Shown: in pieces, positions 44,657 through 64,000 of the stretch
Layout: each line of letters opens with the position of its first letter
How positions within the stretch are numbered: position 1 is the first letter of the stretch
NCBI GenBank assembly: GCA_029248525.1
Contig: JAQWJE010000049.1
Span: forward strand, 1 to 64,000
Source: Candidatus Binatia bacterium
GTDB lineage: Bacteria > Desulfobacterota > Binatia > UBA12015
DNA: 64,000 nt
Direction of reading: 5' to 3'
Program-made: the position numbers and the translations under genes
Notes under the pieces: generated by a model
What the model saw: the letters and a program-made list of their open reading frames with translations, nothing else
Databases searched by the model: none
Told to the model about the DNA's origin: nothing

Positions 44657-45595
44657 TTGAACAAGACGATTGCCCGGCTCCTCGTCAGTCTGGTCGTCCT
44701 CGGGGTCCTCTTCATCAATGTCGGCCCGGCAAAGTTGGGGCACGTACTGCTCGAGGTGCAGCCCCTCTGGTTTTGGGGAGCATTTATCGCCTACAATTCA
44801 GGCCAGGTCGTCAGTGCATTGCGCTGGAAGACACTCGGTGATGCGGTGGGCTTCGAGACAAGCGGATTGTCCTACATCCGCATCTATTTCATCGGGATGT
44901 TCTTTGGAATCGCGATCCCCAGTACGCTGGGAACCGATGGCACCCGAGCACTCTACCTGGGACGAATACCACCTGGCGCCACCAGGGCCCTGTCGACGGT
45001 GGTCGGAGATCGAGTCATTGGTCTGGTCACACTGATGACCGTGGCAGCGCTGGCGCTCCTGTTCGGCCCGCGCGGCGATCTACCACCTATCCTCGCTCTG
45101 GCGCTTGGTCTCCTGTCGGGGGGAAGTCTGCTCGCCTGGATCACGGCCCCTGCTCTGGCCTCCTTGCTTCCCGAAGGAAACCGCCTGCGCGAGTTGATCC
45201 GAGGCGACCTCCTGCCGCTCTTTCGCCACCCAAAACTTCTCGGCAAAGCATTTACGCTTTCGATTCTGGTGCATCTGCTCCATATCGCCGGGCAGAAGTT
45301 CCTTACCGATGCTCTGAGCCTCGACGTCAGTTGGGGATTCATCGCGATTTATCATCCCTTGATCGTCCTCGCGACAGCGATTCCGATCACCATAGGCGGC
45401 TTCGGCTTGCGCGAAGCAACCTATGCTCTGCTGCTCCCCTTCGCGGGCATTCCGGCCGACGATGCCATCGTCCTGTCCTTATTGTGGTGGGCTGTAGGCG
45501 CGCTTGGTGGCCTGCTCGGTGGTGTCATCTACGCCGCCAGCGGAGGAGCGCCCGCGGCACCCGGCAGGCCACCTGCCGGACCCGCGACCGGCTGA
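44657..45595 (+). CDS. YbhN/LPG-synthase-transmembrane-like membrane protein
   Basis: A 312-residue protein with about eight membrane segments. It has the family elements ALRWKTLGDAVG, FFGIAIPSTLGTDGTRALYLGRI and IGLVTLMTVAAL, and the C-terminal AIPITIGGFGLREATYALLLPFAGI. These match the lysylphosphatidylglycerol-synthase membrane domain family (YbhN, AglD-like), which handles lipid or isoprenoid carriers. It lacks the catalytic soluble domain. The start is TTG at 44657. A second member of the family lies at 47935-48912. Its last 117 bases overlap the opposing exported fusion gene. Confidence 0.85.
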   Translation: MNKTIARLLVSLVVLGVLFINVGPAKLGHVLLEVQPLWFWGAFIAYNSGQVVSALRWKTLGDAVGFETSGLSYIRIYFIGMFFGIAIPSTLGTDGTRALYLGRIPPGATRALSTVVGDRVIGLVTLMTVAALALLFGPRGDLPPILALALGLLSGGSLLAWITAPALASLLPEGNRLRELIRGDLLPLFRHPKLLGKAFTLSILVHLLHIAGQKFLTDALSLDVSWGFIAIYHPLIVLATAIPITIGGFGLREATYALLLPFAGIPADDAIVLSLLWWAVGALGGLLGGVIYAASGGAPAAPGRPPAGPATG

Positions 45596-46813
45596 TTGCG
45601 ATATGGTCGCCAGCAACGCCGTTACAATCGGATCGATGCTCGCATCGTTGACTCCGGGCAAGGGCGCCCACTCGAGAATTCGACGACGCAGTGGTCCCGC
45701 GCGAAGATTCTCCGGGCGCAAGGCCAGTTCCTGCCGCAAGGCGTGATCGATACGATCAATCGCGGGTCGGATCTGCTCCTGCAAGGAGAAGATTTCGAGC
45801 GCACCCTCGCCTCGCTGCAACTGGGCCCGCTGCACTGCTTTGGCCGCCGCAAATTGTGCCTCGACCAATGCCACATAGGGCTCGATTTCCAGATGCGCTT
45901 CCGCAGCAACTCGTGCCGCGCGACGACGGATAGCCTGCTCCCGGCCGGAATCCTGAATCGGCAGCGATTGAGCTCTTTTTGTTTCTGCGACAAAGGGCAT
46001 GACCTGCAGCCGGCGCGCCACCAGATCCGCGAGGCGCTCCTCTGCGGGGGACAGCCTTGGGCCGGTATCCGGAATGTAGCGCCGCCGGCGCTCCGCAAGC
46101 TGGCCGCTCGCCTCTTGCGCGGCCAGCCAGGTATCGATGGATTCGAGCAAGCCCGCCTCACCAGCGCCTAGCCAATAAGCCTTGCGATCCGATTGGAGAA
46201 CCCGCGCTACCCGCGGCGCCGGATGAAAACTTCGGATCTCGAGGGTATCGGTCACCACAGCATCCACTAAGCCGCGGGCGAGCAAATCGGGAAGTGTCCG
46301 GTTCTCGTCCACCAGGATCAGAGCGACTCCGGGCAAGTGGGCCCGGGCGACGCGCTCCAGGTGACCGCCTCGATTCACGGCAACGCGCAGACCGGGAGTA
46401 TCCAGCATCGGCACTGCTCGTTGGTTAGAAACGACTACAATGGCATCGGCTGTGGCTACGGCCCGCGACATTGGCGCCTGAATCAACCGATCACCACGAA
46501 CCGTAATCCCGCTCATCGCCACCGCAAATCGCTCGTCAGCGAGGTCGCTGGTCAGATCCGGCCAGGTAAAGGGAACAACCTCGAGGATGCGGCCCTTGTC
46601 GACAGACCACGCCTTGGCCATCGCGACATCATAGCCCTGCAAGCATCCCTTGGCGTCGCGGTAGGCGAACGGAGGGTAATCGCCACTCATCCCGACTCTG
46701 ACAGGATGGGCGCACCCCACCAGGCCCAGCAGAATCAGCAGAACTATCGCCTGTCGGCATTTTATTGGTTGAGCCGACGGCGGCACTGTCTTACGCTTGT
46801 TCCATGATCGCAT
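45479..46813 (-). CDS. exported cyclohexadienyl dehydratase - chorismate mutase fusion lipoprotein
   Basis: A 444-residue protein. The signal ends in lipobox LVGC (Cys34), so it should be lipid-anchored in the periplasm. Residues 36-247 match the binding-protein fold of Phe[41 protein letters not shown] and VVTDTLEI, the last holding the catalytic Glu. Residues 255-405 match AroQ-gamma chorismate mutase: VARRL, K279 in VAETKR, D288/R291 in IQDSGRE and AAAKAVQ. Together they would convert chorismate to prephenate and then phenylpyruvate (or arogenate to Phe) in the periplasm. The last 35 residues lie in the antisense of the neighbouring gene. ATG 46813 or GTG 46786 is the start. Confidence 0.85.
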
Positions 46814-47934: not shown

Positions 47935-48912
47935 CTATTCGGCAGTACGCTCCTGTCCGGTCTGCCCCAGCACCATCAACACCGCGCCCGGCAAGGCACG
48001 AAATAAATCGCGACTGCGTGCAACAATCGCAGCGGTCACCGCAAGCCCCGTCCCACTTCCCTGGAAACTGAAGATTGCCGCTTGCGCCCCTTCCAAGGCT
48101 CCCACCGAGCCTGGGATCGGCAGCGCGTGAGCCAAGCCGACTCCCATGATGGCGCCAGCCAGCTCAGGCAATGTCGGTGACGCCGCGAAGACCTGGAAGG
48201 CAATGGTGAATTCAAGAAAGATCAGCGCGTTCAGAAATAGTGCAAAACCGATGATCCAACCCATTTGGGATCGACGCTGAAAGAGCAGGAGTCGCAACGA
48301 ATCTTCGATATCGATCAAAGCCTCCGGGGTTGCTCCCAACCGCTCCAACATGCGAGCAAACCGCCCTCGCATCAAGGAGTCTCCACGACCCAGTCGCCGC
48401 ACGAGATAGATCCCGACAGCAAAAAAGCTCAATCCGCCCAAAACGACTGCCAACAGCAACTGCTCGCCCAGCGCCTGATTCCGAGTCGCGAAAAGTGTGC
48501 AATAGACGACGGCAAAGCTCAGATTCGCCAGCAACTCGATCGCTCGGTCAATGATGACACTTGCAACCGCCGGCCCCGGCGGTACCGGGCGTTTTACGAG
48601 GAGAAAAGCGCGCAACGGATCTCCGCCCAGCTTGGCGCCCGTTGTCACCGAACTCACCGTCACCCCGGCAAACCACATCGACAACAGCGACGAGAGTGGA
48701 ACGGATACGCCCAGTGCCCGCAAGACCATCCGCCAACGAAAAGCGATGCCTGTGGCAATCAAAAAAAATGAAGCCACGTAAACGGGCAGCCAACGAATCT
48801 GCACCCTCTCGAGCGTATCGAGAATCAGGCGCGGACCCGCTTGCCAAATCAACCAAAAAAACAACAGGAAGCCGAGCCCCGAAAACAGGGATCGGTAGAG
48901 GCCGCGCTTCAT
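47935..48912 (-). CDS. YbhN/LPG-synthase-transmembrane-like membrane protein
   Basis: A 325-residue protein with about eight membrane segments. It shows FRWRMVLRALG, LLSMWFAGVTVSSVTTGAKLGGDPLRAFLL, and the C-terminal PIPGSVGALEGAQAAIFSF, matching the same family as the protein at 44657-45595. Proteins of this type flip or handle lipid-linked intermediates. Its ATG overlaps the stop of the MMPL transporter gene (ATGA, 48909-48912), making it the last gene of an ACP-LolA-MMPL-YbhN operon and a likely lipid-trafficking part of it. Confidence 0.87.
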   Translation of the reverse strand: MKRGLYRSLFSGLGFLLFFWLIWQAGPRLILDTLERVQIRWLPVYVASFFLIATGIAFRWRMVLRALGVSVPLSSLLSMWFAGVTVSSVTTGAKLGGDPLRAFLLVKRPVPPGPAVASVIIDRAIELLANLSFAVVYCTLFATRNQALGEQLLLAVVLGGLSFFAVGIYLVRRLGRGDSLMRGRFARMLERLGATPEALIDIEDSLRLLLFQRRSQMGWIIGFALFLNALIFLEFTIAFQVFAASPTLPELAGAIMGVGLAHALPIPGSVGALEGAQAAIFSFQGSGTGLAVTAAIVARSRDLFRALPGAVLMVLGQTGQERTAE

Positions 48913-51392
48913 GCGCGCTCGTCCGGCAATGCAAGCGGAAGCACCCAGATCATGAGAGAAAAGGCCGTGAGCAGACCCAGCGCGGCCACCATACCCAACC
49001 CGCCAAGTGCGGGGTATCTGGAGAGAGCCAGTGCACCGAATCCGACCATGGTGGTCGCTGTCGTGATTGACAATGCCCGCCCGCCGCGCTCCATCGCGGG
49101 CCCTACCGCCTTCTCCTCACGATAGCGAGCGAGCAGAAAAAGGCCGTCGTCCAGGGCAATCCCCGCGACTAGCGGGAGCATGATGATGTTGACGGGTGTC
49201 AATACGATTCCCAGCCAACCCGCCATGCCGAGCGTCCCCAAAACGCTCAAAATCGGCAATGCCAAAAGCGCGAATAAAGTCCGCGGTTGCCGCTCGCGCC
49301 AAGCCAATAGAGCCACGGTCAGGAGCATGACCAGAACCAGAAAATTCATGACCTCCTCGCGCAAGGTCTTTTTGAGCTCGGCTTCCATCAAGGGACGCGC
49401 AGCCACCTGCAAGGAAACTTCGGGGGGCAAGAGGAGATCCTGCTCGAGTTCCTCGGCGACCAACCGGAGCGCCGCAGAGCTCTGCGGCGTAAACGAAACC
49501 AGAATGGCGGTCCCGGCAGCATCTCGCCTGATATGGTGCTCGAGAATTGGCTCCATCCCGGGGAGTGGTCTCTCCAACGCCGACTCTGGTTGTGGCACCG
49601 TGCGGAGAGACCGCAATCCCGCAGCGAAAGCGGTCGTTCGAAAACCGGCTTCTTCGAGGGCATTCTCCAGAGCGGCTGCAGCCTCTTCTCGTGGCTGCGC
49701 TGTCCACCAGTCGATCCTCTCGGTCTGAGTCGCCAGTGAAGGCAGCAAGCTCGCGGGACTGGTCACCGAAACGACCGCACCGCTTTCGATAAAATCTTCA
49801 AGGCGCTGCGTCGTCACTTCGACACCCTGCAAAAGGGCCTCCACGCCGTCCGCCCCAGCATCCGGACCAATGCCCAGCATTACGGATCCGTGTGGGTTGG
49901 TGAAACCGAAATGCTTTCCGATCTCGTCCTGAACTGCGGCGGCCTCACTTTGACGAGGCCGCAAGGCAAAGAGATCTGTATTGAGGCGAACATGCGAGAG
50001 GCCCACGACGACCCACACGAGCCACAAAACCAGCGCGAATCCAAATAGCCGTCGTCGTCGCGCAACCACCGAAGCCAGTCGTGCCAACCATATGGCCCGG
50101 CCGGGAGCATGCCCACCAACACCGGCCCCCAGCAATAAAGCCGGCAGCAGAATCATCGTTGCCAGAGCATTCCAGAAGATTCCGATAGAGGTCAGCAAGC
50201 CCAGCTGCGCGATTCCCTGCAGGGAGGCAAAACCAAGCAACCCGAAAGCCAGACCCGTCGTGACCGAAGCGATCGCTATGGGCCAGAAAAGGTGGCCCAG
50301 CGTCGACGCCAGAGCGTCCTCCGGGCTTCGATCTCCCCTGACCTCTTCGCGAAAACGCGTATGGAAATGAATAGCGGCATCGATTGCCAAACCATAGAAG
50401 ATCGCGGCAAAGGCCAGGGAGATCACGTCGAGGCGCTGGAAAATCAGCAGACCCGCGGCAAGCGTAACGAGAGACCCCAGCAGGAGATGATAGCCCAGGA
50501 TCGGCAAGAAACGTCCGCTGCGGGCCGCCACAAGAAAGATGAACAGGACTCCAAAAAAGGCGGCGCCGGTATAGCGCATCAAATCGAGTCGCATCATCGC
50601 GGCGTCTTCTCGAGCGAACGCGAATGCACCTGTATAACCAACACCAAGAGATTCCTGCTCAAGCGGTGTCCATTGGCTGCGGGCCTTGGCCTCGGCTCGC
50701 GCCAACCCCTCGGAGAGACGAGCGACCTCGTCCATCGAATAGCCGGCGTTGGTCGGTTGGATCAGGAGAAGCAGACGCTGTCCGTCTTTGGACATCAGGT
50801 ATTTGCTTCCCGGTGACAAAGCGCGATCGGGCCGATTCCGCTCGAGCGATTCTCCCAGAATCCCCGTGAATCCAAGCGGATCCGCGGCCATTCGTGCAGC
50901 CATGGCTCCGCTGCCCGGCAACGCCAGAAGACCGCGGATGCCCGCGGCAATCTCCTGCCCCAGACTCGGGTCGAGACGCTCCTGCACCGCGGGTCGGAAA
51001 TCCTTGCTGGTATAACGGACGAAACCGCCGTCGACTGAAAAGTCCACAAAAGCGCCGACATCGATCGACCCGCGAACACCGGCTACCGCTTCTTCGACCG
51101 CAAGCGCTGCCACGAAGTCTTCCGCGAAACGAGTTGCCATCGCCTCATCGGGCGCACGAAGCACCGCAACAGCCGCGTCTCGCGCGGCAAATCGACTGAC
51201 AAATTGTGCGTAGGATTCAAAGGCAGGAGCGCCGGATGGAAGCATCGAAACCAATCCGACATCAACTCGTAACCAAAAGAGAGACGACGCGGAAACGAAC
51301 AAAAGAAATAGCGACGCCCAGCGAATCCCGGCGGCATAACGAACGATCCATGCCGCCAGAGTCCGGATGCGAGGGTTCGCGTCGCGATTCAC
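48909..51392 (-). CDS. MMPL/RND-family lipid exporter
   Basis: An 827-residue transporter with two six-helix halves. Features include FAAIFYGLAIDAAIHFHTRF (the Asp/His-bearing GxxxDxxxH segment) in the first half and LPLVAGIALDDGLFLLARYREE in the second. Large periplasmic domains precede each half. This is the class of exporter found in aryl-polyene and hopanoid (HpnN) clusters. It is coupled to LolA upstream (ATGA, 51389-51392) and to the YbhN-type gene downstream. It probably moves the lipid product from the inner membrane toward the outer membrane. Confidence 0.9.
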   Translation of the reverse strand: MNRDANPRIRTLAAWIVRYAAGIRWASLFLLFVSASSLFWLRVDVGLVSMLPSGAPAFESYAQFVSRFAARDAAVAVLRAPDEAMATRFAEDFVAALAVEEAVAGVRGSIDVGAFVDFSVDGGFVRYTSKDFRPAVQERLDPSLGQEIAAGIRGLLALPGSGAMAARMAADPLGFTGILGESLERNRPDRALSPGSKYLMSKDGQRLLLLIQPTNAGYSMDEVARLSEGLARAEAKARSQWTPLEQESLGVGYTGAFAFAREDAAMMRLDLMRYTGAAFFGVLFIFLVAARSGRFLPILGYHLLLGSLVTLAAGLLIFQRLDVISLAFAAIFYGLAIDAAIHFHTRFREEVRGDRSPEDALASTLGHLFWPIAIASVTTGLAFGLLGFASLQGIAQLGLLTSIGIFWNALATMILLPALLLGAGVGGHAPGRAIWLARLASVVARRRRLFGFALVLWLVWVVVGLSHVRLNTDLFALRPRQSEAAAVQDEIGKHFGFTNPHGSVMLGIGPDAGADGVEALLQGVEVTTQRLEDFIESGAVVSVTSPASLLPSLATQTERIDWWTAQPREEAAAALENALEEAGFRTTAFAAGLRSLRTVPQPESALERPLPGMEPILEHHIRRDAAGTAILVSFTPQSSAALRLVAEELEQDLLLPPEVSLQVAARPLMEAELKKTLREEVMNFLVLVMLLTVALLAWRERQPRTLFALLALPILSVLGTLGMAGWLGIVLTPVNIIMLPLVAGIALDDGLFLLARYREEKAVGPAMERGGRALSITTATTMVGFGALALSRYPALGGLGMVAALGLLTAFSLMIWVLPLALPDERA

Positions 51393-51988
51393 GGTTGATT
51401 CTCCGCAACCTCGCGACGGACCACCACATCGATAAAGCGAATCTTGCTGGTATCGCCGGCTGTCGTCTCGAGCATCACCTCCGATAGACCGCCTTCGGGC
51501 CCACCGAGGACCATTACCATCCGGGTCAGATCACTACCGGCTCCCGCTATCCTAGGCGTCAGCGCAAAGCTGTCTTTCACCGGGCCTGCGACGACTCGAA
51601 ACTGATCTATCTGAGCTGCGCTCCCGCCGAGAAACAAATCGGTCATTTCCCGAAGCCCTGCGGCTGCTCCCACCGAGGGCAATGTGCGTAACTGTCCGGG
51701 GCGCCCCGCTCGGATCTGATCACCCTCGATCTCCAGAACTAACGCTTCCGGGTTTTCAATTACCCATCGAACCCGATCGGGGCGCTCCAGCATAAAAGTT
51801 CCTGCCGACACCAGAGGCTTGGCAAGCAGCGGGGTCTGCCGGTGCTGCAAAAAGCGTCCCTCGATCCTCTGCACATCCGACTGTCGAATCATCCAGGCCT
51901 TCAGATCACTTTCGACCTCTCCCCCGGAAGCATTCGCATGAGCGATCAAGCAGATAAAAAACGCGGCCGAAAGAGCACATCGCACCAT
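51389..51988 (-). CDS. LolA-like periplasmic lipid/lipoprotein carrier
   Basis: A 199-residue protein with a signal peptide (residues 1-21, ending AHANA). The mature protein has the LolA-type open beta-barrel features: RIEGRFLQHRQTPLLAKPLVSAGTFML, then RPDRVRWVIENPEALVLEIEGD and the late MVMVLGGPEGGLSEVMLE. LolA proteins carry hydrophobic ligands across the periplasm. Beside an ACP, MMPL exporter, and KS/CLF pair, it more likely carries the polyene or lipid product than lipoproteins. It overlaps the exporter gene by 4 bases. Confidence 0.87.
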   Translation of the reverse strand: MVRCALSAAFFICLIAHANASGGEVESDLKAWMIRQSDVQRIEGRFLQHRQTPLLAKPLVSAGTFMLERPDRVRWVIENPEALVLEIEGDQIRAGRPGQLRTLPSVGAAAGLREMTDLFLGGSAAQIDQFRVVAGPVKDSFALTPRIAGAGSDLTRMVMVLGGPEGGLSEVMLETTAGDTSKIRFIDVVVRREVAENQP

Positions 51989-51991
51989 TTT

Positions 51992-52264
51992 TCAGGAAGC
52001 AGTCTGTTCCTGTGCTGCGATAATGAAGTCCGCCAGAGCAGCGATCGATGCGAAAGCCGTTTTTGCTGCTTCTTCGTCCGCGATCACGACTTCGAATTCT
52101 TCCTCGATCAGGACGACGAATTCGAGGGCGTCAATCGAATCCAGCCCCAGGCCATCGCCGAAGATGGCGTCGTCGTCGACAATCTCGGCCGGGGACACCT
52201 CGAGACGAAGGCCGTCGACCAGCAGTTCCTTGGAGCGTTCGATTATTTCGCTTCGCGACCTCAT
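51992..52264 (-). CDS. acyl carrier protein
   Basis: A 90-residue acyl carrier protein. The phosphopantetheine site is Ser43 in FGDGLGLDSIDALEF. Helix I is RSRSEIIERSKELLVDGL, and helix II-III spans EFVVLIEEEFEVVIADEEAAKTAF. The GLDSIDALE word is the form common in polyene-type ACPs rather than the ADSLDTVE of housekeeping fatty-acid ACPs. It heads an operon with lolA, the MMPL exporter and a YbhN-type gene, with only 3 bases before LolA. It is divergent from the ketoreductase/ketosynthase operon. Confidence 0.93.
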   Translation of the reverse strand: MRSRSEIIERSKELLVDGLRLEVSPAEIVDDDAIFGDGLGLDSIDALEFVVLIEEEFEVVIADEEAAKTAFASIAALADFIIAAQEQTAS

Positions 52265-52437
52265 CTTGATCGAATGCTTACTTCTAGATTCCCGGTGGTA
52301 CAAGGAGCGGAAACCATGAAAAAGTCCTGAATCCGGGCCCGGCAAGTGAATTTCATCCAAACCGGAAACATATATTCAGCAGGGGGCCGCCTTGCCCAAG
52401 AGATCAAGAAACGCGAGACTGGAGCAGGTAGACTTTC
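52265..52437. promoter_or_regulatory. divergent promoter region of the polyene-like cluster
   Basis: These 173 bases separate the ACP and ketoreductase operons. A TATATT at 52371-52376 is the best -10-like site for the plus operon, with GAATTT at 52348-52353 a poor -35. AAGGAG at 52302-52307 precedes a four-codon ORF (ATG 52316 to TGA 52330, MKKS), then a CCGGGCCCGG palindrome at 52333-52342. I could not find a clear minus-strand promoter. The region may hold a shared operator. Confidence 0.35.
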
Positions 52438-53181
52438 ATGGAACTTGAACTGCAGGGAAAAAAAGCTTTGGTCACGGGGGCCAGTCGCGGAATCGGCCTG
52501 AGCATAGCGAAACGACTCTCGGCCGAGGGCGTTACTGTCGCCATGAATGCCGGGCACGACGAAGAACGTCTGGACGCGGCCGTGGGCGGCGTCCAGAATG
52601 CCGTCGCCGCATTCGGCGATATCTCCGACCCGTCCGCAGTCGATGCTCTTTTCAAGGGACTGAAAAAAAGCATCGGCGGCATCGACATTCTGGTTCATAA
52701 CGCCGCTCGCACCAGCGATGGGCTTCTGATGATGATGAATCATGCAAGTTGGCGAGAGACTCTCGATGTCTCCCTCGATGGCGCCTTCCTATGCTCCAAG
52801 GCCGCCCTGCGATCCATGATTGCCGCTCGCGGCGGGAGAATCATTCAGGTCATCTCGCCAGCGGCCTTTCTCGGCAAGCCCGGTGCCGCCAACTACGCTG
52901 CGGCGAAAGCCGGTCTGCTCGGACTGACCAAGACGTTGGCCGGCGAGGTCGGTCGCTACGGCATAACCGCGAACGCCATCTGTCCCGGCTGGGTGGATAC
53001 CGAACTGATCGCGGGAATGGAACCGGAAATTCGCTCACTTGAGGAATCTCGAATTCCCCTGGGCCGGTTCGCTGAAACCGAAGAAATCGCAGACGCCGTT
53101 CTCTTTCTGGCTTCACGGCGGGCAAACTATATCACCGGCACGACTCTGGTCGTCGATGGTGGTTTGACGATGCACGGATGA
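52438..53181 (+). CDS. 3-oxoacyl-ACP reductase-like SDR (ketoreductase)
   Basis: A 247-residue SDR of FabG type. The NADP loop TGASRGIG is at residues 15-22, [11 protein letters not shown] carries the Asn, VISPAAF the catalytic Ser position, and [19 protein letters not shown] the Tyr-x3-Lys pair. The end [24 protein letters not shown] is standard. In a cluster with ACP, KS and CLF it would reduce the beta-keto group of each elongation round. Its stop overlaps the ketosynthase ATG (ATGA, 53178-53181). Confidence 0.93.
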
Positions 53182-54383
53182 GACGAGTTTATATCACCGG
53201 CATGGGTGCGATCACCGCAGCGGGCCCCGATGTCGCGTCCTTGATGAAAGCGCTGCGCGAAAATCGCTCCTGCATAGGACCGCTCGATCTGTTTCCCACC
53301 GGCGACACCCCTGTCCAGATCGCCGGGCAAGTCGGCGATATACCCGCGCCTGAAACGCTCGATCGTAAAGATCTTCAACGCGCTTCACGCAGCGACCTGC
53401 TTGCGGCCGCAGCCACAGCCGAAGCATTCGCCGAATCGGGCCTGGCCGCAGCGCCTCCCGACCCCGCCAGGTTTGGCGTGGCGATCGGAAGCTCGACCGG
53501 GGGGATGCTCGAAACTGAATCCTACTACGAATCCTACCATTCGGGCCTTCCCCTGAACCCACACAGGCGAACCCTGCTATCGGCGACCGTCGGAGCCAGC
53601 GCAGACCTTGTTGCCAGCATGGTCGGGGCACAGGGCCGACGCCTCGCGCCCTCCACCGCATGCTCCAGCAGCGCTCTGGCCATCGCGATGGGCAAATTAT
53701 GGATTGAATCCGATGCCGCCGATGTTGTGGTGGCCGGAGGTACGGATGCCCTCTGCCGCATGACCTTCTCGGGATTCCAATCTCTGCGCGCGATGAGTCC
53801 GGAACCGTGCCGGCCTTTCGATCTCAATCGTCAGGGTCTCTCCCTTGGCGAAGGCGCTGGTATCGTGATTCTGGAGTCGGAAAGCCACGCCGCCAAACGA
53901 GGCGCACTCCCTCTCGCGCGAGTCGCCGGAGCCGGTATGTCCTGCGATGCAACGCATCCAACCGCTCCGCACGAAGAAAGCCGCGGCGCCATTGCCGCAC
54001 TCAGCGGCGCACTCGAGGATGCGGGACTCGTGCCGGGCGATATTGATTATATCAATGCGCACGGCACTGGTACTCCACAAAACGATGCCGCCGAGGCCCG
54101 CGCGATCCGACGAGTTCTCGGAGATACGGGTGATTGTCCGGTATCTTCCACCAAGGGTGTTTTCGGGCATCTCCTCGGGGCCGCTGGCTCTGTCGAGGCA
54201 ATTTTGTCGAGCCGCGCCATGATCGAAGGCTTTCTTCCGCCACAGGTCGGGCTGCTCGATCCCGACCCCGAGTGTCTTCTTTCGTTCGTGCGCGAGCCTC
54301 GCCCCGCTGTCCTCGAAACTGTCGTTTCCAATTCCTACGGTTTCGGCGGGAACAACGTCAGTCTCGCTCTGAGTCGGACATGA
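53178..54383 (+). CDS. beta-ketoacyl-ACP synthase (catalytically complete)
   Basis: A 401-residue thiolase-fold enzyme. All catalytic residues are present: Cys in [13 protein letters not shown] (about residue 159), His in [14 protein letters not shown], Lys/His in [15 protein letters not shown]. The N-terminus [18 protein letters not shown] and C-terminus [14 protein letters not shown] are typical of FabF/KSalpha. It performs the condensation step with malonyl-ACP. It is coupled to a ketosynthase-like gene without catalytic residues, so the two probably form a KS-CLF heterodimer. Confidence 0.94.
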
Positions 54384-55570
54384 ACGATCCTGTCGTGATC
54401 TCCGGGGCGGGTCTGATCACCCCACTCGGCACAGGAGCCAGCGCTGTTTGGGCAGCCATCGAGCGAGGCGAATCCGGTATTCGACATCTCGAAGACGACG
54501 ACCCGCGATTCGCCCGCGGCGTCGATCCCGACAAGGCACCCGCCTGCCGGTTCGGGGGCTTCGTTCAGGGCTTCACGCCGCGAGAATTGATCCAGTCCAA
54601 CCAGCTCCGACGGATGGATTGGTTGTCACGCCTGCTGCTGGGTTCCGCGCGCCTTGCCATTCAGCACGCCAATATCGAAGAAGAGATCGCCTCGGCCCCC
54701 GAGCGAACGGCGATCGTCGCGGGATCTGCTTTCGGAGCCCAGCGCGAAACTCAGGAGTATATTGATCGGCTTTTGAGCCGTGGACTCGGGGCCGGCCAGC
54801 CTTTCCTCTTCCCTAATCTCGTCCTGAATGCTGCCGCTGGTTGGGCGGCGATCGAATTTGATATTCAGGGACCCAATATCACGGTCTCCGAGCATGAAGC
54901 ATCCGGCGAAACTGCTCTGGTCACAGCCTTCGACCTTCTTGCGTCCGGTTCTGTCGACCGAGTCCTCGCCTCCGGCATGGACGAGTTCAGCCAGGTACTG
55001 CTGCACGCGTTGGAAGATCGCCACCTGCTGGACCCTCGATGTCTCGGCAAACCGGAGAATAAGGCCTCGGGCAGACGCAATTTGATCCCCGGTGAAAGCG
55101 GCAGCACCTTGGTGCTGGAACGCCTCTCGAGGGCTCGCACGCGCGGGCACGAACCGCTCGCTGTTCTCGCGGATGCGGCCACCATGGGAACCGGTAGTCG
55201 AGCCCATCAATTTACGGCACCGAAAGCTGCCGCTGCTGCTGTGCAAGGGTGGCTACAGAACCGGGATGTTGACCTCCTGATCAGTTCCGGTGCCTGCAGT
55301 GCAGCCCGAGATGCTGTCGATCAAGCGATCGGCGAAGCTGCCGGGAACCCGACACAAATCGACCTGAGCGCCTATGTCGGAGAGACTCCCTCCGGTGGGG
55401 TCCTCGCTGCCGCGATCGGCGCTCTCTCTTGCGCCGCCGGGCACGGCCCGGGCACAGCAGCCGTATCGCCTCTCTCCAATGTTCTGATCAGCGGCGTCGC
55501 CCGCGGGGGTCTGGTCGCACCCCTCCTTTTACAAAGCCTCGAGAAAGGGATCGCCGGCCCTCAATCCTGA
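54380..55570 (+). CDS. ketosynthase-like chain-length factor (KSbeta)
   Basis: A 396-residue thiolase-fold protein starting [18 protein letters not shown]. Where the catalytic Cys would sit, in a T-A-C-A-S-G context, it reads SEHEASGETAL, with Glu in the Cys position. The NAHGTGT motif is replaced by ISSGACSAARDA, and the second His region reads YVGETPSGGVLAA. It therefore cannot condense by itself. Chain-length factors of polyketide and aryl-polyene systems are such dead partners, usually with Gln in place of Cys. It is coupled by ATGA to the active ketosynthase gene. Confidence 0.88.
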   Translation: MNDPVVISGAGLITPLGTGASAVWAAIERGESGIRHLEDDDPRFARGVDPDKAPACRFGGFVQGFTPRELIQSNQLRRMDWLSRLLLGSARLAIQHANIEEEIASAPERTAIVAGSAFGAQRETQEYIDRLLSRGLGAGQPFLFPNLVLNAAAGWAAIEFDIQGPNITVSEHEASGETALVTAFDLLASGSVDRVLASGMDEFSQVLLHALEDRHLLDPRCLGKPENKASGRRNLIPGESGSTLVLERLSRARTRGHEPLAVLADAATMGTGSRAHQFTAPKAAAAAVQGWLQNRDVDLLISSGACSAARDAVDQAIGEAAGNPTQIDLSAYVGETPSGGVLAAAIGALSCAAGHGPGTAAVSPLSNVLISGVARGGLVAPLLLQSLEKGIAGPQS

Positions 55571-59659: not shown

Positions 59660-59762
59660 CTGCCGGGTTTCCCCTCTATGATTCAGCCGTGCTTGCCCAT
59701 GGGGCCGATTTCTCGCGCGTTCGCAGAGGAACATTGTCACCGGGCCGAATTTGGAGGATCAG

Positions 59763-60533
59763 ATGCTTCTCGATCGTTTTCGCATGGATGGAAAAACCGC
59801 TCTCATCACGGCTGCCGGCAAGGGAATAGGTGCTGCATGCGCCCGAGCCTTGGCTGAATGCGGCTGCAACGTCATGGTCGCCGCACGCACCGAGAGTGAT
59901 ATCGAAAGCGTCGCGGCTGAGGCACGCGCGCTCGGCGTCCGCGCCTCGGCCCTGCGCTGTGACATGACCAAGCGCGAAGATATCGAAGCTCTCGTCGCGG
60001 CTACCATGGAGGAGTTCGGCAGGATCGACGTTCTGATCAACAACGTTGGCGGCTACCCTCCGATGCCGGCCTTGAAGACGAGCGAGAAGGCCTTCAACGA
60101 TGCATTCAAATTCAATGCGACGACCGCTTTTATCACCAGCCGTCTGGTGATCCCCCATATGCTCGCAGGTGAAGGGGGTTCGGTCGTTGCCATTTCGTCG
60201 GCCGCCGGACGCGTCCCCGCCTCCGGGTTTGTCGCCTACGGCACCTCCAAGGCTGCGATGACCTTCATGATGCGAAATTTTGCGCAGGAGTTCGCGCCCA
60301 AAATTCGCTTCAACACCATTGCGGTCGGTTCCACCGCCACAACCGCTCTGACCAACTTTCTCGATGATAAAACCCGATCTCTGATGGAGGACTCCACGCC
60401 GATGAAGCGCCTGGCCGAACCGGAGGATATCGCGATGGCGGCGATCTATCTGGCCTCGGATGCGGGCAGTTATGTGACCGGAAAGGTGCTTGAAGTCGAC
60501 GGCGGACTGGAATGGAATAACTGGCCCTTCTGA
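59763..60533 (+). CDS. short-chain dehydrogenase/reductase
   Basis: A 256-residue classical SDR. The cofactor loop reads TAAGKGIGAACA at residues 16-27, an unusual Ala for Gly at the first loop position. NNVGGYPP holds the Asn, AISSAAGRVPA the catalytic Ser, and VAYGTSKAAMTF the Tyr-x3-Lys. AARTESDIES suggests NADP(H). It has the usual GGLEWNNWPF end. The ATG at 59763 has GGAGGATC upstream. It ends 5 bases before the convergent adenylating-enzyme gene. It may be part of the polyene-like cluster, or independent. Confidence 0.9.
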   Translation: MLLDRFRMDGKTALITAAGKGIGAACARALAECGCNVMVAARTESDIESVAAEARALGVRASALRCDMTKREDIEALVAATMEEFGRIDVLINNVGGYPPMPALKTSEKAFNDAFKFNATTAFITSRLVIPHMLAGEGGSVVAISSAAGRVPASGFVAYGTSKAAMTFMMRNFAQEFAPKIRFNTIAVGSTATTALTNFLDDKTRSLMEDSTPMKRLAEPEDIAMAAIYLASDAGSYVTGKVLEVDGGLEWNNWPF

Positions 60534-60538
60534 GGGAG

Positions 60539-61834
60539 TCACATGGACTCCTGACTCTCCAGTACCCGCATCAGGGCACGCCGGCGAGAATCGCGCCGGC
60601 GTGCCTCGCGATGACCTTGCCACCGAGCCAAAGAAAAGAACCCGGGGGTTGGACTCGCGTCAGGCACGGACGAAGCCCTGGGCTCGGATGTCCAATCAGC
60701 AAGGCGCCACAACTGAGCCGCAGGCACCTCCGCGAGATCCGCGAGCGAGACACTGCCGGGATCAGGCGCCCGGTCGACCAGCCGAACATCCATGGGCAAA
60801 CCGATCTGGCGACGGAGGTCGAGGTATTCCTTGGTGGGAAGCGCCATCCCCGGATCGGAAACCTCAACGAGAATCCGCAGATCCTGTGCGCGGACACCCG
60901 TATAAAAAATACGACCACCCAATGCGGCAGCAAACGTCTGCGCAGCGGCCAGGATATCTACCGCCATCGCTTCACGGCCACCGAAAGCGACAGAGTCCCG
61001 AGCGGAACCCAAACGTCGCACCGGGAAATCCGGCCGTTTGCATTTACATGCGGCGGTAGCGACCTCGACCAAATCTCCCGTGCTCCAACGGACCAGGGGA
61101 GCCCGCGCTTGCTGCAGGCTGGTGATCACCAACACGCCACACTCGCCGGGCGGAACCGGTTCTCCATCCACAAGGTCGAGAATCTCGCAGGAGTATAGGT
61201 CATTCGCCAAATGCAGCGAGCCTTCCGCACACGATACGCCAAGCAAAACCGCTTCCGGTCTCTGGTAAACCTCGACCACCCGACTGCCCCAGTCCTTTTC
61301 CAACTGCAAACGCAGCGAGTCCGGCAATAGACCGGTCGCGAGAAGCAGCTCGACCGAGGAGGGAATTTGGCAAACCCCTCCGGCATCGACCTCTTCCGCC
61401 AGCAAGAGAAGAGCTCGGGAATCACCGAAAACCACACGTGGCTCGAAGGCCGCCAGTTCGCGCAGGACACGGTCGATCGTCTCCGAATGCCAGATACGAA
61501 TTTCTTCCGTTGGCAGCGGACCTTTCGCCACCAAGGTCATTCGGGAGGGCCCCGCCTGCTGATCCGAATGCATGGCCTGCAAAAGAGTGTGCGGATCTGA
61601 CTCGGGCACAAAACTCGAGAGAAGTTGAGCGGCAGGGGCGATCTCGTCTCCGCCTGTGTCCGAGAAAAACAACTGGGATATGCCCGCCTCTCCGAGGTCT
61701 CGAATAGAACTTGTCGGCAGCTTCTGGAACTCGGCCCGGGTCGAGCATGGATATCCCTGCAGATGTCGGGCGTAAAACGAGCCCTCCCGCGCATGGGCAA
61801 CACAGCTCGCCAGTTGCCCCTCGGTTACCGGCAT
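60539..61834 (-). CDS. adenylate-forming enzyme, LuxE/PaaK-like
   Basis: A 431-residue ANL-superfamily protein. The C-terminal core shows WSTGDLVEVATAACKCKRPDFPVRRLGSARDSVAFGGREAMAVDILAA, like the YRTGDL...GRxDD...GxNVxP hinge of PaaK. The expected P-loop (SSGTTGKP) is changed: at residues 58-65 it reads SDTGGDEI. It probably activates an acyl or aryl acid for loading on ACP, or its ATP use is altered. It lies 28 bases after a glycosyltransferase gene on the same strand, so it belongs to the acyltransferase operon. ATG 61834 follows GAGAAGG. Confidence 0.78.
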   Translation of the reverse strand: MPVTEGQLASCVAHAREGSFYARHLQGYPCSTRAEFQKLPTSSIRDLGEAGISQLFFSDTGGDEIAPAAQLLSSFVPESDPHTLLQAMHSDQQAGPSRMTLVAKGPLPTEEIRIWHSETIDRVLRELAAFEPRVVFGDSRALLLLAEEVDAGGVCQIPSSVELLLATGLLPDSLRLQLEKDWGSRVVEVYQRPEAVLLGVSCAEGSLHLANDLYSCEILDLVDGEPVPPGECGVLVITSLQQARAPLVRWSTGDLVEVATAACKCKRPDFPVRRLGSARDSVAFGGREAMAVDILAAAQTFAAALGGRIFYTGVRAQDLRILVEVSDPGMALPTKEYLDLRRQIGLPMDVRLVDRAPDPGSVSLADLAEVPAAQLWRLADWTSEPRASSVPDASPTPGFFSLARWQGHREARRRDSRRRALMRVLESQESM

Positions 61835-61862
61835 GAGGACCTTCTCTCGGCACGAAGGGCGC

Positions 61863-62564
61863 TCATCTTCGAACCTTCGAAACAAAGGGTATGATCATGA
61901 GAATAATCCGCAACGTATCCAACCATGGGTGGTAGTGGCTATGCCTTTCATCCGGCGGTGGGTAGTAGACCTGAACGTCCACGGTTTCGATGCACAGGCC
62001 ACGACGAACGGCGAGGATCAGAACTTCACTCTCGAATTCGAAATGGCGACCGCGAATCTCCTTCGAGAGGATGTTGGCCAGAGATGCCATTGGATAAATT
62101 CGAAACCCTGATTGCGTATCGAGGATCTTCTTGCCCGAGGCTCGCTCGACCCAACCGTCAGCGAAATCATTCGCCCAACGCTTCAGCGGATCGATTTCAT
62201 GCACACCGTCACGGCAACGAGAACCGATAATTATCCTTTCCGGGTAACGCTCGGACTGCGCCACCAGAACCGGAATTTGCGAAGCGAGATGCTGGCCATC
62301 CGCGTCGAGTGTCACGACATGCGTAAAGCCTTGCCCCGAAAGTTCCTGAAAACCCTCTCGCAAGGCCGCACCCTTACCCCGGTTGCGAGTATGGGTGATC
62401 ACCTGAGCACCTGCCTCTCTCGCTCGATCGGACGATTCATCGCGCGATCCATCGTCGACCACCAGAACTTTCTCCACATATGCGAGAGCGGACGAGACCA
62501 CGGAGGCAACGGTAGTTCCAGCCCCGTAACAAGGAACCAGAGCGGCAAGGCGAAACTGACTCAC
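61863..62564 (-). CDS. family-2 glycosyltransferase
   Basis: A 233-residue GT-A enzyme. It starts FRLAALVPCYGAGTTVASVV, with VLVVDDGSRDES (nucleotide binding), TRNRGKGAALREGF and the DxD motif VTLDADGQHL. KKILDTQSGFRIYP is typical of dolichyl-phosphate-mannose-synthase-type enzymes, which use lipid carriers. There is one membrane-like end (TLRIILMIIPFV). It would glycosylate a lipid or polyene head group. Its start overlaps the PlsC-type gene end (ATGA, 62561-62564). Confidence 0.91.
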   Translation of the reverse strand: MSQFRLAALVPCYGAGTTVASVVSSALAYVEKVLVVDDGSRDESSDRAREAGAQVITHTRNRGKGAALREGFQELSGQGFTHVVTLDADGQHLASQIPVLVAQSERYPERIIIGSRCRDGVHEIDPLKRWANDFADGWVERASGKKILDTQSGFRIYPMASLANILSKEIRGRHFEFESEVLILAVRRGLCIETVDVQVYYPPPDERHSHYHPWLDTLRIILMIIPFVSKVRR

Positions 62565-63340
62565 CCGCGCAGAGCCTGCAGGCGTTGATGGATGCGGCCC
62601 TGCACCCGATCGCGAAGGTCTTCGCGATCCTCGTAAGAAAGCCCTTTGGTCTCGATCGGTTCGAGAACTTCCATCACGACACGTCCGGGGTGAATCGACA
62701 GATATTTTCCGCGAGGCATGACCTCGTCACTTCCGTGAATGGCGATCGGAACGATTGGGCGTTCCATTTGAATCGCCAAAGTGAACGCACCTTTCTTGAA
62801 TTCCTGCAGGCCGCCCCCTGCCGGCGAACGAGTCCCCTCGGGAAACATGATCAGGGAAAAAGCGCCCTTCCCTTTGGCCGCAATCCGATTGAGCTTTTCG
62901 ATGGATTTGGCTGGATCCTTCCGATCGATCGGAACCATCCCCAGCGTCTTCATCACGGCACCAAGAATGGGCTCCCGAAACAACTCCATCTTCGCAGCAA
63001 ACCGAATATGACCGGGTAGGTGTCCCAATAATGCCACGATATCAAAATGACTTGCATGGTTAGGCGTGACGACCGACGCCTCCGCAGGGAGGTTCTCGGC
63101 ACCCCGCAAATCAATCTTCACACCTGTTGTCGTGCCAATATTTCGAGCCACGGCTTTTGCGGTTTCCCAGCCGAATTCAGGGTTCGCAAAATGAAGGGCA
63201 CTGACCAGAGCGCCTCCACCTAAAACCGAGGCACGGAAAACAGCCCGGTTTAGGAAGAGCTTCCCCGCGCCAGCCGGATCGGCTCCGAATCGGAGGAGAT
63301 CTTCCCGGTTTGCATCGTCGGATATATCGGCTCCGGTCAT
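62561..63340 (-). CDS. 1-acyl-sn-glycerol-3-phosphate acyltransferase-like protein
   Basis: A 259-residue PlsC-family acyltransferase. Motif I is NHASHFD (His-x4-Asp), motif II KMELFREPILG, motif III FPEGTRSPAGGG, and motif IV VPIAIHGSDEV. An N-terminal hydrophobic segment (about residues 30-50) should anchor it to the inner membrane. In the context of the adjoining LpxL-type acyltransferase and glycosyltransferase it probably acylates a lipid acceptor rather than doing general phospholipid synthesis. ATGA overlap with the upstream gene (63337-63340). Confidence 0.9.
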   Translation of the reverse strand: MTGADISDDANREDLLRFGADPAGAGKLFLNRAVFRASVLGGGALVSALHFANPEFGWETAKAVARNIGTTTGVKIDLRGAENLPAEASVVTPNHASHFDIVALLGHLPGHIRFAAKMELFREPILGAVMKTLGMVPIDRKDPAKSIEKLNRIAAKGKGAFSLIMFPEGTRSPAGGGLQEFKKGAFTLAIQMERPIVPIAIHGSDEVMPRGKYLSIHPGRVVMEVLEPIETKGLSYEDREDLRDRVQGRIHQRLQALRG

Positions 63341-64000
63341 ACTTTCTGATTAGCCCAGAAGTCGCGAAACTGAAACCATTGGAGGGGGTATTGACGAACC
63401 TTCGCTTCGAAGAAACCGACCACTTCCTCGATCGTTTCCTGAAGAACCTCGTCGGACGACCCGCGCGGGATGCGGTAGACTTTCGACGGCAGAAATTTAT
63501 ATCTTCGGCGCGATTCACTGACCGCGAAAACGGGCCAGATGGGGACGCCAGCCGCACGTGCCAAATGGAAAGGCCCCACCTGAAAGGGCGCGGCCTTGTC
63601 AAAAAATGGCAGGTTTTGCGTTACTTGCCCGGGGGCTGATCGATCGAGCTGAATCGCAACCACTTCCCCTCGGCGAAGCGCTCGCAGCATCTCGACAGAC
63701 GCAAAGGGGGAGTTGTCCGAATGAATAATTTTCAGCCCCATCTGACCGCGCATCTTGTCCTGGAAAGCCTGCACCGTCGGGTTTCCCTCATGAGCCATGA
63801 CCAGATTGACGGGCCGATCAAATCGCTGCATGACTCGTGCGCCAATTTCCCAACAACCGAAATGCGAGGTCAAGGCGATCAGGCCGGAGTCTTCCGGGAC
63901 GATCGCATCCAGATCCAGATCCGGCGGAAGTTCGATGCCCAAATTCGACTCCAGGTTGAGTCCCAGTTCTTCTTCGTGCTGCACCTCGCAAGTTTCGCGG
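63337..64000 (-). CDS. LpxL/HtrB-type lipid acyltransferase (5' end missing)
   Basis: The reading frame runs off the window edge, so only the C-terminal 221 residues are seen. The acyltransferase motif HFGCWE (His-x4-Glu) appears in IALTSHFGCWEIGARV, followed by AIQLDRSAPGQ and GPFHLARAAGVPIWPVFAV, as in lipid A secondary acyltransferases. The tail FQFRDFWANQ also matches. Members of this family transfer acyl or aryl-polyene chains to membrane lipids in aryl-polyene clusters. It is coupled to the PlsC-type gene downstream. Confidence 0.88.
   Translation of the reverse strand, partial: RETCEVQHEEELGLNLESNLGIELPPDLDLDAIVPEDSGLIALTSHFGCWEIGARVMQRFDRPVNLVMAHEGNPTVQAFQDKMRGQMGLKIIHSDNSPFASVEMLRALRRGEVVAIQLDRSAPGQVTQNLPFFDKAAPFQVGPFHLARAAGVPIWPVFAVSESRRRYKFLPSKVYRIPRGSSDEVLQETIEEVVGFFEAKVRQYPLQWFQFRDFWANQKV

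Follow-up and report, generated by a model that had tools for sequence, protein, structure and literature searches.

The window analysed here, a stretch of 64,000 nucleotides, corresponds to positions 1-64000 of contig 49 (951 kb) in a genome of 4.27 Mb that is 98.9% complete. Seven core genes, all open frames of the expected families (YbhN, MMPL, LolA, ACP, SDR/KR, KS and CLF), are arranged in two divergent blocks (Table 1). Direct reading of the junctions revealed ATGA overlaps for KR/KS, KS/CLF and MMPL/YbhN, a GTGA overlap for LolA/MMPL, and a 3-base gap between ACP and LolA. The gene order and coupling given in a preliminary description of this DNA were thus recovered for all seven genes, except that the LolA/MMPL junction had been read as ATGA. 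The span assigned to the cluster in that description (51992-55570) contains ACP to CLF, but LolA, MMPL and YbhN lie outside it, at 47935-51988. A second minus-strand operon (60539-64266), absent from the description, encodes LpxL-type, PlsC-type, GT2 and PaaK-like proteins and adjoins MiaB; its LpxL-type gene runs past the end of the window.

Table 1. Genes of the cluster and of the neighboring operon, in window coordinates.
Feature	Position	Strand	Evidence
YbhN-type (LPG_synthase_TM / flippase-like) membrane protein	47935..48912	-	PF03706 1.5e-28
MMPL/RND lipid exporter, ApeM-like	48909..51392	-	PF03176; 23% to E. coli ApeM, 6e-13
LolA-like periplasmic carrier, ApeL position	51389..51988	-	PF03548 1.7e-7; hydrophobic N-terminal stretch
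Acyl carrier protein (ACP), nearest ApeE family	51992..52264	-	PF00550; PRK09184; DSI serine
SDR ketoreductase (KR), FabG/ApeQ-like	52438..53181	+	adh_short_C2 7e-62
Ketosynthase (KS), intact Cys-His-His	53178..54383	+	PF00109+PF02801; tree
Chain-length factor (CLF), full length, EASGE replacing active-site Cys motif	54380..55570	+	PF00109
Second SDR, role unsure	59751..60533	+	near GT2 operon in most family loci read
PaaK-like adenylate-forming protein, degenerate	60539..61885	-	DVU_1553/PaaK models below cut-off
GT2 glycosyltransferase, matches N-terminal half of ApeJ	61863..62564	-	PF00535; 31% to ApeJ, 2e-30
PlsC-type acyltransferase, ApeD-like	62561..63340	-	PF01553 2e-27; NHx4D, FPEGTR; 26% to ApeD, 5e-8
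LpxL-type acyltransferase, matches C-terminal half of ApeJ	63337..64000 (to contig 64266)	-	PF03279; 28% to ApeJ, 6e-15

The KS retains the catalytic residues Cys162, His295, Lys326 and His331, and the motifs STACSS, NAHGT and GHLLGA. In a 38-row tree it was placed with ApeO, the APE-like KS of the relative G012 and one Streptomyces KS (support 97/97), and the FabF of the same genome grouped with E. coli FabF; joining the KS with FabF was rejected (AU p 0.023). The narrower ApeO group has support of 88/79 and is not firm, because ApeO is a long branch. A grouping with housekeeping FabF/FabB, which the preliminary description had named as evidence against its polyene reading, was therefore not seen: the KS falls among the ketosynthases of KS-CLF pairs. 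A role of the KS as the housekeeping FabF was ruled out by the tree, the AU test and the separate FabF on contig C8. Throughout the CLF family the Cys position is occupied by EASGE, and the HGT and GHLLG motifs are missing, which identifies the protein as a real CLF. The locus thus holds a KS-CLF pair of the type II PKS kind, with a coupled KS whose Cys-His-His is intact and a CLF lacking the catalytic Cys. The CLF matches PF00109 only (E. coli ApeC matches PF13723) and forms a separate family in the tree (100/100); no ApeC-type CLF was found, with no ApeC match at 1e-3 by blastp. Plasmid records searched for the KS and the CLF gave distant matches only. The cluster has one ACP, whose best NCBIfam model is also matched by E. 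coli ApeE and which is 42-45% identical to ApeE. The KR contains the TGxxxGIG and YxxxK motifs, and is closer to E. coli FabG (41%) than to ApeQ (33%).

The proteins of the second operon were compared with the aryl-polyene cluster of E. coli CFT073. GT2 aligns with the first half of ApeJ, LpxL with its second half and PlsC with ApeD, indicating that aryl-polyene-type attachment genes are present 6-9 kb from the core cluster, with ApeJ split here into separate GT2 and LpxL genes. Eight further species of the family encode LpxL orthologues (49-59% identity), and all of these except G006 also possess the CLF; G001 has the CLF and an LpxL match of only 36%, and three genomes of genus g3 have neither the CLF nor a close LpxL. 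The PaaK-like protein adjoins GT2 in three relatives. It showed no Pfam match, no recognizable P-loop motif and no match in a PHROGs scan; the first two results disfavor its gene as the starter ligase.

A search of the genome with the FabA model returned a single firm match, the housekeeping FabZ fused to LpxA, and the ApeI and ApeP models gave no match in this genome. The FabA model proved able to recognize E. coli ApeP; the genome search with PF22817 was run without a positive control. No hidden dehydratase was found in the cluster with the FabA, ApeI-like and ApeP-like models. Since no dedicated dehydratase was found, the product is at best a putative polyene. The preliminary description had also counted the absence of dehydratase and starter genes from the longer contig against itself; the dehydratase is indeed missing from the contig, but a probable starter ligase is present on it (see below).

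A FabA-like dehydratase lies inside the operon of two more distant relatives, L065 and G373. In L065, the genes form one run, ligase-KR-ACP-KS-CLF-LolA-dehydratase-LolB-like-MMPL; in G373, the order is ligase-ACP-KS-CLF-dehydratase, and an APE-type set that includes ApeO, ApeC and ApeQ lies a few kb away. In the latter locus (L126:4002-12317), the ApeO/ApeC pair is situated about 4 kb from the second, window-type KS-CLF pair. In the search of the phylum, G373 and a few other matches were looked at, and most of the lower-scoring matches may be FabF. The parsimonious reading is that this family lost the linked dehydratase; FabZ may then take over its role, or the chain may keep its hydroxyl groups or be saturated. 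An orphan hotdog protein on contig 39 (L130:7518-8330) aligns weakly to the L065 dehydratase (33%, E 0.002); because its neighbors are unrelated genes, it is kept only as a weak dehydratase candidate. This alignment, together with the operon-borne dehydratases of L065 and G373, would fit a genuine, conjugated aryl polyene, for which FabZ or an unlinked hotdog protein acts as the dehydratase after the family lost the dedicated one. However, ApeI, ApeP and a second FabA/FabZ were not found in the genome, and the orphan hotdog protein is unlinked to the cluster. We regard this as a possible but doubtful outcome; it is a narrower form of the explanation preferred here, and the likelihoods of the two overlap.

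An acyl-AMP ligase (288124-289464) and a flavin halogenase (289469-290824) are located on the same contig, 233 kb from the cluster. The two genes at 288-291 kb are convergent, as is the pair in the relatives' clusters. Among enzymes of solved structure, the halogenase most resembles other halogenases (8zop, 5bul/5bva, ChlB4 and PltA among them), and several of these act on carrier-bound substrates. The distant ligase is of the relatives' type, the PaaK-like gene linked to the cluster is degenerate, and the distant gene is probably the starter ligase of the cluster. Xanthomonadin clusters are known to contain halogenases (PMC3691225), as are the arcuflavin clusters of Azoarcus, which are split (PMC3949708). 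In relatives of genus g5, a NosL/NocL-type radical SAM protein is encoded beside the CLF (L045:7305-8471, L043:8272-9423, L046:10302-11442); it belongs to the 3-methyl-2-indolic acid synthase family (244 bits to 6htk/4r33), and a benzoate/4-hydroxybenzoate-type ligase is encoded near it.

The ligase and halogenase also bear on whether the locus could instead be devoted to making an unusual fatty acyl chain, one that is long, hydroxy or saturated, with no aryl starter or polyene. In such a system, FabZ and an enoyl reductase would finish the chain, and LpxL, PlsC and GT2 would put it on a glycolipid, which is then exported. The housekeeping FabZ as the sole dehydratase found, the proximity of the KR to FabG, and the FabF model as the highest-scoring profile of the KS, albeit below its cut-off, are in keeping with this. 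However, the relatives' clusters contain a ligase and often a halogenase-like protein, and the pair is present here; the ApeE-like ACP, the KS-CLF phylogeny, the ApeJ/ApeD equivalents and the separate FabF on another contig likewise argue against a special fatty acyl product, which we consider unlikely.

Both divergent blocks are found again, in unchanged order, in other genera of the family, where the KS shares 55-60% and the CLF 37-45% identity with those of the window. These relatives were deposited as Deltaproteobacteria, Candidatus Binatia, Proteobacteria or only 'bacterium'. Where visible, one flank of their clusters consists of JAB-HAD-SBP-YbhN2, and the opposite flank carries RecQ in several of them. 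In the window, YbhN2, a second YbhN paralogue kept in relatives, is found at 44657-45595 on the cluster flank, and positions 45479-46813 encode a fusion of an SBP_bac_3 solute-binding protein and a type II chorismate mutase domain; relatives keep this fusion adjacent to the cluster site, as does the genus that has no cluster. The relatives' clusters add an acyl-AMP ligase, and in several the ACP and KR genes are separated by genes for a halogenase-like flavoprotein and an isocitrate-dehydrogenase-like protein. In G012 (L047, L054), a second aryl-polyene-like set with halogenase-like proteins surrounds the window-type KS-CLF.

Genus g3, which lacks KS-CLF, is informative about YbhN. The SBP, HAD and JAB flanks stay in G002 and G004, plus YbhN2 in G004, but YbhN, MMPL and the rest of the cluster are absent from the stretches read in both; YbhN thus goes with the cluster, being missing together with it where the flanks remain. 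In G006, MMPL abuts JAB and YbhN is missing, so YbhN is not strictly required. Synteny and joint absence in g3 therefore bear out the earlier view that YbhN is built into the export operon. Its position beside MMPL, which had been taken as a possible sign of a new product, does not by itself point to one; HpnL/HpnN profiles are among the matches of both proteins. Relatives carry an extra gene between LolA and MMPL with an invariant lipobox Cys, and its predicted structure (mean pLDDT 69.5) matches LolA and LolB structures; its product is thus LolB-like. It was not found in the window's genome by a search run without a positive control. Of an ApeL-M-N-type export set, LolA and MMPL are therefore present here, and the LolB-like member in relatives.

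The missing LolB-like protein and linked dehydratase, along with the degenerate AMP-ligase-like gene at 60539, could indicate a decaying remnant, in which the dehydratase and the LolB-like gene were lost, the ligase moved, and no product is made any more. However, the core frames, junctions and catalytic motifs are all intact. The genes are also nearly identical in another MAG of this species (UBA12015, filed as a deltaproteobacterium), although MMPL aligns there as two segments separated by about 300 bases (G007, L051:4900-7702), which may reflect an insertion or an assembly artifact. Decay of the pathway is thus quite improbable.

Several known systems resemble the locus. The apeA-R cluster of E. 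coli CFT073 shares KS, KR, an ApeE-like ACP, LolA, MMPL, GT2 and LpxL-type proteins (the ApeJ halves) and a PlsC-type protein (ApeD). Unlike apeA-R, the locus has a CLF of another family and an added YbhN, no ApeI/ApeP or LolB-like protein was found, there is no second ACP, no thioesterase or methyltransferase was seen, and the ligase is unlinked. The xanthomonadin and arcuflavin systems of Xanthomonas and Azoarcus BH72, the genes of which may be split over two loci (PMC3949708), are alike in KS, KR, GT2, acyltransferases, LolA, exporter, ACP, AMP ligase and halogenase. They possess dehydratases, an unusual CLF-like protein and a chorismate-derived starter enzyme, whereas only FabZ was found as a dehydratase here, and the CLF is a full-length PF00109 protein. 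Flexirubin clusters share LolA, the exporter, an acyltransferase and a glycosyltransferase with polyene clusters (PMC3949708). Here, matches to the FlxB, FlxY and flexirubin LolA2 models were weak and far below the curated cut-offs, and no resorcinol-forming genes were seen in the stretches read. Cispentacin-type AmcB/AmcF/AmcH models also gave weak matches below their cut-offs. Highly reducing type II PKSs of the ishigamide type share KS-CLF and KR, and the KS of a KS-rich Streptomyces cluster joins the KS group; unlike the window, the part of that cluster that was read has dehydratases and no LolA/MMPL export. Hopanoid export by HpnL/HpnN likewise places YbhN-type and MMPL-type proteins side by side, and both models were matched weakly; however, the scores are far below the cut-offs, and the genes here are for carrier-protein synthesis, not hopanoids.

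The carrier, KS-CLF, attachment and export parts of the locus thus resemble the pathway of the yellow aryl-polyene pigments and of xanthomonadin, and on the strength of the sequence comparisons we favor, with moderate confidence, a divergent type II polyketide pathway of this kind that makes an envelope lipid. The assignment to the aryl-polyene class made earlier is supported by the KS placement, the ApeE-like ACP, the ApeJ/ApeD equivalents and a probable starter ligase on the same contig, but not by the CLF type or by dedicated dehydratases. Because neither an ApeC-type CLF nor a dedicated dehydratase was found, the pathway is better described as a variant of the aryl-polyene pathway than as a member. 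Its chain-length partner differs and it has no dedicated dehydratase, so it probably does not make a textbook aryl polyene; the pathway is most likely a rearranged one, whose product would be an aryl-primed, probably halogenated envelope lipid.

From the gene content, catalytic motifs, synteny, KS placement, ApeJ/ApeD homology and ligase-halogenase pair, we infer a substrate, step order, lipid attachment, export and product as follows. An aryl acid would be activated by the acyl-AMP ligase and loaded on the ACP, where the flavin halogenase may halogenate it. KS-CLF would then extend the aryl starter with malonyl units, the KR would reduce each beta-keto group, and FabZ, if anything, would serve as the dehydrating enzyme. 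The LpxL-type and PlsC-type acyltransferases and GT2 may attach the finished chain to a sugar or lipid. At the inner membrane, YbhN may help to flip the lipid over, and MMPL would hand it to LolA for transfer to the outer membrane.

In sum, an export and attachment module is paired here with a different KS-CLF lineage and has YbhN in its export operon, and relatives add to this module a LolB-like lipoprotein and exchangeable head-group genes. More tentatively, a separate KS-CLF lineage of uncultured deltaproteobacteria and their relatives might make halogenated, aryl-primed lipids of the outer membrane instead of aryl polyenes, with a head group that varies by genus; in one genus, the NosL-type radical SAM protein and an aryl ligase might supply an indole-derived starter. 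The locus offers a testable case in which a conserved module for envelope-lipid assembly and export has taken on new chemistry for both chain and starter, in a lineage represented here by MAGs alone.
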